Assembly: GCA_949317995.1 (NCBI GenBank)
Contig: OX439044.1
Coordinates: 17,012,641-17,076,640, forward strand
DNA: 64,000 nt
Direction: 5' to 3'
Source: Acholoe squamosa
Lineage: Eukaryota; Annelida; Polychaeta; Phyllodocida; Polynoidae
Below the pieces are notes generated by a model. The model was given only the letters and a program-made list of their open reading frames with translations, made no database searches and was not told where the DNA came from. This document shows positions 60,601 to 63,600 of the stretch, one piece after another. The number at the start of each line of letters is the position of its first letter. Position 1 is the stretch's first letter. The translations under genes were made by a program, and so were the position numbers.

Positions 60601-63600
60601 GAGAATATGTGTTTCTGGGCATAGCATATGTCCAGGAGAATGGTGTTAGCCCTCCCTAGCTAGCCTCTAAGCCATATAATCTAACACTCTATATTATCAA
60701 ATGACTTTATAATAGCTCACACTATCATACTAGACCATACTATATAATGCTTATATAATCTAAACTATGCCTAAAGAAAAGGAAATTCAAATTCAAATGA
60801 CTTATAATGGCTCACACTAGCTGCCTGCAGACTTAGTGTGTCCTAGTAGTAAATATAATACAATACCACCACCATAATCATTCAGGGCAAATAATAATTC
60901 AAGGAGCCAATCATCATATGGTACGCTTATTATAAATAAACCAGGTGGTTGTGGAGTGGTGATTGCAACTCAAAACACCTCCTCACACAACATTCCATTA
61001 TATAAATATGATCTGGGTGCCGAGTGATTGCATCTCAAAGCGCTGGCAACGACCAGTATATAATTATATATGAGGGTTGACTAGGTCTAGACCACCTAAG
61101 ACATTCTGTATTGATATATACAAAATCAACTGTGTGGTACTGTAAGTAGTGCAATAGGCGCTTACCAGTATGCTCCAGTTTCTCACCTCCTTTGCCTTTC
61201 ACTGAGTATATGTTGATAACATTCACCTCTCTTTCCCTTGCTATACTATGCAGGTGGGGTTCTAGTGCACCCACCCTGCTGTCCCCTGTTGTGGAGGTAG
61301 TAACACTGCACACCCCTTGCAATGTTATGGGGGCCCTACTCCTAGGTTGCCATTTAGGCAGCTGTGGGTCTGTACTGGCGACCTTTTTACTCCTTCTCCT
61401 GGTCCTTTTTCTCTTCTGCTGCCCCCCCATTTTCATCCAGTAGAGATGTGTCTTGGTCTTTCTCCTCTGTCTGTGTGTCTGTGTCTGTAACTGGCTGTAT
61501 AGGCACAGCTACTGGGGGCTGGGGGCGTTCGAGAACTAACTTGTGACGTAACCTCTCTAGGATTTTCCCTAGATTATTCTCACCTAGGATCACTCCACTT
61601 TCATAGCAAGCATGTCCCAACATATTTGCTCCTGCCCAATAGGAATCCTTGGTCGCTTCTATTAAGGGGGTGGGGTGTGTTTGGCAGAGCTGGTCTGCTA
61701 ATGCATCTGACTGTCTATATTTACACTCCTCCAGCTTCTCCATTAGCGCTAGCCTCTCTTCATCCATCCATTTTTTGGTCACAACTACCTCATCTCCATA
61801 GCTTTTAGCTGTAGGTGCATCTTTAGCCCCCATTATTCTTGTGGCAGCTCCTTCGTCTTTATGAATCTTGGCTTTCTGGTGTTGAAATGCCTGCTCAACT
61901 GATTTGTAAGTATTTTCAGTGCCAGTATCGTCTTTGTATTTCACTGTAGTGGGATAAAAGTTAGACAGGAAGGCACTAGCACCTTGGAAGGTTAACCCTG
62001 CAGCTGTTTTCCGAATGCCCCCACTGCATTTCACCTTCTGTTTGTGACCTACTGCTGACTGCCACCCACAGCCTGCATGGGGCCCCACACCACCCTGTCT
62101 CCTGCTGCCCTTTGCAGTAGACTGGCCCCGGTCTCCCTGAATATTGTTTAATTGCTCATCTTCAGCTGGGGTTAGCTCTGGCGGAATTTTATCCACATCA
62201 TTTAGCCCATATTCAACCCCATCAACAACAATGCTATTAGGCAATGTTCCTTACAATCTTCAACCTCCTTCTTCCTAGCCCTACTGCTCTCTCTGGCTTC
62301 CTTCTCAATGGTATCCATTCTGGAGTTAGCCTTCTTCTCAAACTCATTGAACTTATCCTGTAATTTAGTTATCTTCTTGTTACCCTTCGTCACCTTGCTA
62401 TCTAACTCTTTGAACATTTTCCTGCTGGGCAGTTTTTTTTCTAACTTTATGAAGTAGTTGTCTAGCAACATGATTAGCTGATTGTTGCCTATGGTTGGGG
62501 TTTCTAGAGTTAATTCATCTAAGGGGCCCTCATCTTCACTATCACTCTCTCCTAGTGAATTGTAGTTAGAGCTACCACTTTTATTGACCTCGTTTTCCTC
62601 AATGTCAGACCCAACATTGTTTATATTGCTATTGTCAATATTGTCATCATCAGTCTCATTTGCCCTGCTCCTAAGATTCCTTTTACCAGCTTTATTTCCC
62701 TCATCAGAGTCTTTCTTCCCTCTGTCGCCAGCCATAGTGAAATAGGTGTTGGGGGTAGTGCAAGTCTATGTATACCAGTAGGGCTTGACAATGGAGTCCC
62801 TGACAACCAGCCTCCAGTCTGTGTACACTGAGAAGAACTACTGGGAAATACAGACTAACCTTGGGTTTCCCCTTGTGGAAAACTTAACCTATAGTGTCCT
62901 GTTTCCTTTCTACACTGACCCTGCTTGTGATTCCTCCCTATGTCTTCCTAAATACACCATAATCCCTTCCAAATTGCCAGAGCTCTCACGTTCAGCTACT
63001 GGCCATAACGATGACGTCACTGCTACTCTTTTCAACTCAATGATATATAGCAGCTATAATTGTTAATATTTACAGTTGAGTGTGTCGCAGGGTCCTACTC
63101 TACAAGTGCTAATACTGCAGGGTTTGAACCCTGTGCTCCCTGCCCTATAGGCTTCTACAATGAGAATCCACGTAGGGCGAGCTGCTCACCGTGCCCCTCT
63201 GACGAGCTCACTACATCCACAGGCGCCACATCACCAAATAACTGTACAGGTCAGCCTCTCTGTATACTACAATACTATTATCATTTTCAATCCTCACCTC
63301 CTCGGGTTCCTCACTTTACAATCCCTCATTGTCCTCACAGATAGATTTTCAATTATTTTTATGCTTTTACTATTTGGACTTGAAAGCTCGGAAAATTGGC
63401 TTCCTCAGACATTCTGTCCTTGCATCTTTCAAATGCCATGAAATGAGGGCTGGCTGTATTGCATCCATGTATTATTGACCTACCTTCCGACTTCAACATT
63501 TAAAGCAGTGTGCTTTCTAGCAACAGATCTATTAGTATTTAGAATTGAGTATAATATAGTCGCCTTAATGCAACAAGGTTGTAACTGACATATTGACAAA

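Follow-up and report, generated by a model that had tools for sequence, protein, structure and literature searches.

Why would a retrotransposon carry a NADAR domain, and does the domain belong to the element or merely lie within it? The question was raised by a 64,000-nt stretch of the polynoid annelid Acholoe squamosa (assembly GCA_949317995.1, contig OX439044.1, positions 17,012,641 to 17,076,640 of the forward strand; hereafter the window), in which a first-pass annotation, made from the letters alone, had read a minus-strand frame as a NADAR (YbiA-like) domain encoded by a non-long terminal repeat (non-LTR) retrotransposon. We found that NADAR is a conserved part of open reading frame 1 (ORF1) in a range of long interspersed element (LINE) families of this genome. 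Loci are numbered with the prefix L and contigs with the prefix C; papers are cited for their excerpted text.

Results

The NADAR frame and the anatomy of ORF1

NADAR (PF08719) was the single Pfam family in the 61387-62250 frame (82.4 bits against a cut-off of 35.1, E 5.7e-23, residues 92-238 of 287), and an endonuclease/reverse transcriptase (RT) ORF2 lies downstream, which confirmed the domain that had been recognized by its motifs. A Glu in the last strand marks it as YbiA type, and a profile of 10 LINE NADARs matched PDB entries 8bau and 2b3w. The order that had been described, with NADAR between a coiled-coil ORF1 start and ORF2, was also recovered, but in the window copy the domain is no longer in frame with the start of ORF1 because the two are separated by a 580-bp deletion, and 580 is not a multiple of three. 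The apparent frame start at 62244-62250 is the deletion junction and not a true start. The 5′ frame of ORF1 has its Met at 62735-62733, followed by an acidic stretch and then a stretch that is coiled-coil-like by eye, and continues beyond the junction. Among the seven copies compared, the deletion was private to the window copy; a few bases of shared sequence were found at the junction, and part of the coiled-coil-like stretch was lost together with the RRM/CTD-like region. Intact ORF1 is a 652-aa frame with an acidic N-terminus, a coiled-coil-like stretch, an RNA recognition motif (RRM)-like region (RTIVVTGIPE...), a C-terminal domain (CTD)-like region, and NADAR at residues 457-603. Judged by sequence pattern, the three parts before NADAR may be a coiled coil, an RRM, and a CTD. 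A nine-family profile of the RRM/CTD region matched the same region of ORF1 of L044, a distant locus described below (probability 70, pairwise E 3.9e-5).

Sibling copies carry the domain

The genome comprises 1.48 Gb on 63 contigs; its mitochondrial contig has a cox1 readable in code 5 and, in our reading of the sequence, the annelid-like gene order nd3-nd2-cox1-cox2-atp8-cox3. In a search with the NADAR frame, 136 rows were scored of 2,713 first-look candidates; the count is a lower bound. Six places outside the window covered the whole NADAR query at 98-100% identity, each within an unbroken 652-aa frame. We examined 10 kb around these six full copies (L009-L014) and around five broken or partial copies (L015-L019). 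A full-length ORF2 (977-978 aa) was present in four of the six full copies, whereas the matches in L012 and L014 ended at residue 792.

The first-pass annotation had held open that NADAR was a one-off insertion missing from other copies. Candidates for such copies were 14 rows that started at ORF2 residue 1-4 with no row in the NADAR search; upstream DNA was examined for 12 of them, the other two being C2:55264071 (82% identity) and C7:21493579. In all 12, similarity to the element began downstream of NADAR, as in ordinary 5′ truncation, and no full-length copy without NADAR was found among these 12. A chance or one-off insertion was ruled out, the domain lying inside ORF1 of six siblings and of other families.

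Boundaries and age of the element

The window copy is complete at its 5′ end but has internal deletions, and the non-LTR retrotransposon to which it belongs was active recently. It is approximately 6.3 kb long vs. approximately 6.9 kb in copies with an intact ORF1. Similarity set in at window 63020-63029 in L009, L011-L014, and L016 and later in L010 and L017; in copies that reached the 3′ end, the alignment stopped at window 56732-56743. The conserved 5′ terminus opens with GTGACGTCATCG, and the 3′ terminus is CATTGAAACG(A)n. The A run near 57254, previously taken for the tail of the element, is internal, since copies align onward to CATTGAAACG(A)n at 56732-56747. Mutual divergence of the window copy and L009-L013 was 0.12-0.30%, and L014 differed from these by 0.51-0.70%. 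In the genome search with ORF2, 48 of the 49 rows listed had 93-100% identity, and many began within ORF2. The family has the hallmarks of a LINE, namely dispersed copies, 5′ truncations, a common A-tailed 3′ end, and no LTRs; it is recently active, with ordinary 5′ truncation.

No long direct repeats were found at the ends of the window copy. Target-site duplications were sought as exact flank-to-flank matches of at least 7 bp in the seven copies with both ends, and one copy had such a match (L016, 9 bp, beginning in A-rich tail sequence); some LINE clades produce short or no target-site duplications. The sequence TGACGTCA, which we take to be a CRE-like palindrome, occurs at window 63012-63019 and in L009, L011-L014, and L016, at or less than approximately 20 bp from the 5′ end, and is perhaps part of an internal promoter.

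NADAR across LINE families

With the Pfam NADAR model, 150 places in the genome were scored, all above the cut-off, of 3,224 first-look candidates (again a lower bound; the control of this search was positive in 3 of 14 genomes). Of these, 14 places were common to the 136 rows of the frame search, and the rows of both searches were all on contigs C1-C18, except one on C51. We examined 13 further loci from 12 families: L020-L028, in which L027 and L028 are near-identical, and L044-L047, which were picked by recurring frame lengths; most NADAR places lie outside these 13. The recurrence of NADAR within ORF1 of these other families bears out that it is encoded by non-LTR retrotransposons. In 12 of the 13 loci (8/9 in L020-L028 and 4/4 in L044-L047), NADAR is followed downstream by a LINE ORF2 on the same strand, although for L046 just a part of the endonuclease region, 3 kb away, falls within the stretch.

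Among the NADAR LINEs, ORF2 comes in at least two deeply separated types. The window ORF2 matched RVT_1 (E 1e-37) and Exo_endo_phos (E 1.5e-05, 25.3 bits against a cut-off of 24.5), and that of L009, which is near-identical, matched LINE-1 and R2 proteins in PDB. The RT block GVPQGS(I/V)LGP, presumably CR1/L2/Jockey-like, was found in the window, L023, L025, L027, and L047, and the window family is provisionally labeled CR1/L2/Jockey-like here by this block. Its RT appears not to be of L1/Tx1 type: it has a different block and resembles LINE-1 weakly (2e-21, 79 bits to LINE-1 ORF2p in PDB). In contrast, L044 has the block GTRQGCCLSP and matched LINE-1 ORF2p at 4e-74 (253 bits). The block of L045 is GVLQGGVLSP, with a LINE-1 match at 1e-26.

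NADAR and ORF2 diverged together. Their pairwise distances were correlated across 11 families (r = 0.91, 0 of 20,000 permutations) and also when each close group was reduced to one family, leaving eight (r = 0.81, 1 of 20,000 permutations). Left out were L022 (no ORF2), L046 (fragment), and L028 (near-copy of L027); L026 was represented by the first piece of a two-piece ORF2, and L021, L024, and L047 were partial. Identity between the window family and others was 33-38% in NADAR (eight families), 34-39% in ORF2 (five families), and 18-25% in the RRM/CTD region (eight families). The NADAR of L044 shared just 18-25% identity with the other LINE NADARs compared.

Comparisons between families supported purifying selection on the NADAR codons. 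In seven NADAR pairs, third codon positions differed by 0.51-0.70 and first and second positions by 0.16-0.50. The dN/dS ratio (nonsynonymous to synonymous) was 0.14-0.39 in the 6 of 36 pairs with a defined dS, itself large; the other 30 were saturated. For ORF2, the codon-position row of L020-L021 (0.72-0.74 at every position, with 70% identity of the two ORF2s) was not used, being probably an artifact of a stop that shifts the codon count.

The active site is conserved

An alignment of 15 NADARs, 13 from LINEs and 2 from the host, showed the active-site residues to be kept (Table 1). The residues E43, K50, and E125 are named as mechanistic in the P. nicotianae NADAR (PMC11543638). Their equivalents in the window family, E44, K51, and E123, were read from an alignment to 8bau. 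The chain numbering of 8bau was two higher by count, and from this numbering we infer that 8bau is the P. nicotianae NADAR. For the Lys that is Arg in L044, the same change in the E. coli C7 enzyme retained in-vitro activity and lost rescue (PMC11543638).

Origins of the LINE NADARs

Two loci, L048 and L049 (on C17 and C14), are probable host NADAR genes: they scored 184 and 169 bits vs. 107 for the next place and have standalone frames of 222 and 247 aa. A tree was built from 35 rows, namely 13 LINE NADARs, the two host NADARs, and 20 of 80 prokaryotic loci, one row being just 84 aa long. The nine families nearest to the window can form one clade (approximately unbiased test, AU, p 0.52), as can these nine with L047 (0.49). 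The NADAR of L044 was placed together with both host genes and a single bacterial row (99/97), a hint of a second NADAR capture; a single origin of all 13 was not rejected (p 0.121). Distant NADARs were also found in phages (426 records) and plasmids (56 records, L045 domain as query), and two loci on viral contigs had a distant match.

An esterase-like ORF after NADAR

The copies L014, L018, L019, L033, L034, and L040 have 463 extra bases between ORF1 and ORF2 and a complete ORF resembling SGNH/GDSL esterases, with the motifs GDSRVG... and DGLHP... (GDS and DG.H by eye). In the window copy and L009-L013, the core of this ORF was removed by a 463-bp deletion with one common breakpoint; therefore, the youngest sublineage had already lost the esterase-like core when it multiplied. 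The ORF2 frame of L009 starts 0.93 kb past the end of ORF1. All six copies with the 463-bp deletion keep an open NADAR frame; copies were chosen through the NADAR search, and this favors open NADAR frames. An intron was ruled out as the cause of the 463-bp difference, since the stretch lacks the GT...AG pair of ends and encodes the esterase-like core.

PF13472 matched three of the six esterase-like proteins given, at 22-25 bits against a curated cut-off of 32.9 and thus below it in each case (L018, E 1.9e-4; L014, E 1.3e-4; L025, E 2.9e-5); the window remnant had no match to PF13472. The ORF recurs across families with differing RT types. It may be a second enzyme of the ribonucleoprotein particle (RNP), although the young sublineage lost its core. 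A PDB match of this ORF to TAL-effector-type repeat proteins, in which no individual stretch passed by itself, was taken as chance. In L045:1-5001, the NADAR-esterase frame and ORF2 share one frame and are parted by a single stop codon.

Table 1 Features of the window element and of esterase-like ORFs in related loci
Feature	Position	Strand	Basis or remark
Whole LINE copy	56732..63026	-	Ends common to other copies at >99% identity
LINE 5′ end, window copy	~63020-63026	-	Ends shared with other copies
3′ poly(A) tail (T run on + strand)	56732..56747	-	Copy alignment
5′ part of ORF1	62202..62765	-	Same sequence opens 652-aa ORF1 frame of L009
Junction of 580-bp internal deletion, ORF1 frame lost	62243..62248	-	Copy comparison
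Frame with 3′ part of ORF1 and NADAR	61387..62250	-	Frame reading, Pfam
NADAR domain, PF08719, YbiA type	61537..61977	-	Pfam
Catalytic Glu (E44 in alignment A1 = E43 of P. nicotianae NADAR)	61894..61896	-	Invariant, 15/15
Catalytic Lys (K51 in A1 = K50)	61873..61875	-	Kept in 14/15, Arg in L044
Catalytic Glu of YbiA subfamily (E123 in A1 = E125)	61657..61659	-	Invariant, 15/15
Remnant of SGNH/GDSL-esterase-like ORF, overlaps ORF1 end	61035..61508	-	GDSRVG motif kept, core lost
ORF2, 977 aa	57528..60461	-	Pfam
Endonuclease	~59790-60368	-	Pfam
Reverse transcriptase	~58128-58886	-	Pfam
Esterase-like ORF after NADAR	L018:3856-4728, L014:4925-5623, L025:4367-5278		PF13472 below cut-off
Esterase-like ORF after NADAR	L024:5164-5934, L022:5229-6074		Motif only
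Esterase-like stretch in frame behind NADAR	L045:1468-2037		Weak SASA match, E 0.0029, below cut-off

Discussion

A role for NADAR in the LINE particle

With moderate confidence, we consider the best overall explanation to be that NADAR, as part of the ORF1 protein (ORF1p), removes ADP-ribose from guanosine within the LINE RNP. ORF1p would coat the LINE RNA and so bring a guanosine-ADP-ribosyl hydrolase into the particle; with its C-terminal NADAR, such a protein would take the enzyme wherever the LINE RNA goes. The putative substrate would be ADP-ribose placed by host transferases, as an opposing defense, on guanines of LINE RNA, cDNA, or nicked target DNA, and this ADP-ribose, if left in place, would obstruct reverse transcription or mark the particle. 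The sequences establish the anatomy, the linkage, the conservation, the catalytic residues, and the constraint; RNA coating, enzyme activity, substrate, and the opposing host defense are inferred. NADARs are known to undo the ADP-ribosylation of guanosine in both RNA and DNA (PMC11833690, PMC11543638). Together with this published activity, the kept catalytic residues, the selection between families, and the co-divergence with ORF2 lend indirect support to an anti-ADP-ribosylation role, as the first-pass annotation had suggested. What NADARs do in eukaryotes, including animals, has been called unclear (PMC11125620).

In favor of this explanation, the host has PARP-type transferases, with 37 PARP-domain matches, all above the cut-off and several in frames of 1,130-2,333 aa. 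Several results weigh against it. On the side of the host, modification of guanine by these PARPs is not established by domain matches. DarT was not found in the host genome by a search whose control was positive in 1 of 14 genomes, and Scabin-like transferases had no host match in a search whose control had no match either. On the side of the element, the RRM/CTD region of ORF1 had no meaningful match in Pfam and PDB, that of L044 none in PDB, and no ORF2 or RT match was found within the 10 kb of L022. The selection proposed for the NADAR codons was supported between families, as described, but not within the young family, whose six comparisons with L009 gave three synonymous and six nonsynonymous codons with no signal of selection; this is expected because copies drift after insertion. 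Three large PARP frames (1,974, 1,950, and 2,271 aa) lie within 66 kb at C6:5374526-5439803 (+), and other large PARP frames are on C5, C6, C9, C13, and C16.

The abundance of PARP domains in the host, several of them in those large frames, would also suit an active NADAR that targets ADP-ribose on proteins (ORF1p, ORF2p, or target-site chromatin) or soluble ADP-ribose signals, in parallel with a proposal for viral Macro and NADAR domains. We regard this as a less probable, minority explanation: the reported NADARs have guanosine bases as their substrate and leave phosphate-end, uracil, and thymidine adducts alone, and the excerpted text of the same NADAR literature reports no protein substrate. 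Slightly less probable again is that the contribution of NADAR to ORF1p is nucleic-acid binding or structure, with catalysis being incidental. The domain does lie at the end of an ORF1 of RNA-binding type, and modules are swapped among LINE ORF1s (PMC4120745); however, residues that are critical for hydrolysis, as judged by mutants, are invariant or nearly so in the 15 NADARs, the divergent L044 included.

Other base or nucleotide chemistry, for example as an N-glycosidase on riboflavin intermediates or NAD-capped RNA, seems improbable to us. YbiA is linked to riboflavin-pathway N-glycosides, but the elements examined contain no pathway partner. A single capture by the window copy of a host NADAR gene or of its transcript, or a chance position of such a gene beside the LINE, we can hardly credit. 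Two probable host NADAR genes do exist, yet they are just 23-26% identical to the NADAR of the window family; six full copies and other families carry the domain within their ORF1 frame, and its divergence tracks that of ORF2. Guanosine-ADP-ribose removal in the LINE RNP remains our preferred explanation. If the NADAR of ORF1p is active and constant, this would point to ADP-ribosylated RNA or DNA as a real obstacle to retrotransposons in animal germ cells. We propose, tentatively and as a possibility that we would not yet expect to hold, that nucleic-acid ADP-ribosylation is a germline anti-retrotransposon defense of lophotrochozoans, that LINEs of several clades answer with an ORF1p hydrolase, and that the many NADAR loci are the trace of this arms race.

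Relation to known systems

NADAR in retroelements is a kind already known. The first-pass annotation could not tell whether it had been described; it has, briefly, for ORF1 of oyster (Crassostrea gigas) Tx1 LINEs and for Pol of a brown-algal Gypsy lineage, with RNA processing as the suggested role (PMC12477816). Among the papers listed by full-text searches, which subscription papers lie outside, this was the one paper found, in its excerpted text, to join NADAR to retrotransposons. In both cases a NADAR of the YbiA family is likewise fused to a retroelement protein, which in the oyster is also a LINE ORF1. In contrast to the oyster Tx1 elements, the window family has, by its provisional label, a CR1/L2/Jockey-like and not an L1/Tx1-like RT, some annelid families add an SGNH-like ORF, and the domain occurs, co-divergent with ORF2, in a dozen families of one genome. 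The likely counterpart of the oyster elements is L044 with its L1-like RT, the oyster being compared by description and not by sequence.

Type II LINE ORF1s ("transposase 22"; PMC4120745) have the same apparent order of coiled coil, RRM-like, and CTD-like regions before ORF2; the window family differs by its added C-terminal NADAR and by an RRM/CTD region lacking the Pfam and PDB matches mentioned. An SGNH/GDSL-type esterase is likewise encoded by LINEs with an esterase (type IV) ORF1, such as zebrafish ZfL2-1 (PMC3905857), whereas the annelid esterase is a separate, overlapping ORF after the NADAR ORF1 (in frame in L045), and its match is below the Pfam cut-off. The esterase ORF1 was confined to two vertebrate subgroups of the sample in PMC4120745. 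If our explanation holds, NADAR would be a second enzyme beside the esterase among the catalytic domains of LINE ORF1s, and the two a possible enzyme pair. The DarT1-NADAR and YarT-YbiA toxin-antitoxin systems (PMC11543638, PMC11125620) share the domain family and the catalytic residues and take ADP-ribose off guanine; unlike them, the annelid domain is encoded by a retrotransposon with no transferase gene in the element, and it has the YbiA-type Glu, not the DarT1-linked Asp. New, as far as we searched, are the breadth of NADAR LINEs in one animal genome, the CR1/Jockey-like clade, the pairing of NADAR with an esterase, the joint divergence of NADAR and ORF2, and the disappearance of the esterase core from the youngest sublineage.

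Surroundings of the element

The LINE probably lies in a host-gene intron, in antisense orientation. An Ephrin_rec_like frame (PF07699, E 1.5e-11) was found at window 63060-63344 (+), approximately 34 bp beyond the LINE 5′ end and on the opposite strand, and a Sushi match (E 7.2e-09) at 33478-33876. A 34-nt inverted repeat, 82% complementary, with arms at 63554-63587 and 63777-63810 that are 189 nt apart, lies outside the LINE. A 252-aa frame at 2746-3501 (+) had a weak GIY-YIG match below the cut-off (E 0.0015) and is, we assume, possibly a remnant of a Penelope-like element. A second, distant LINE RT fragment lies at 50228-50758 (+), with 23% identity to ORF2 (E 3.6e-10).

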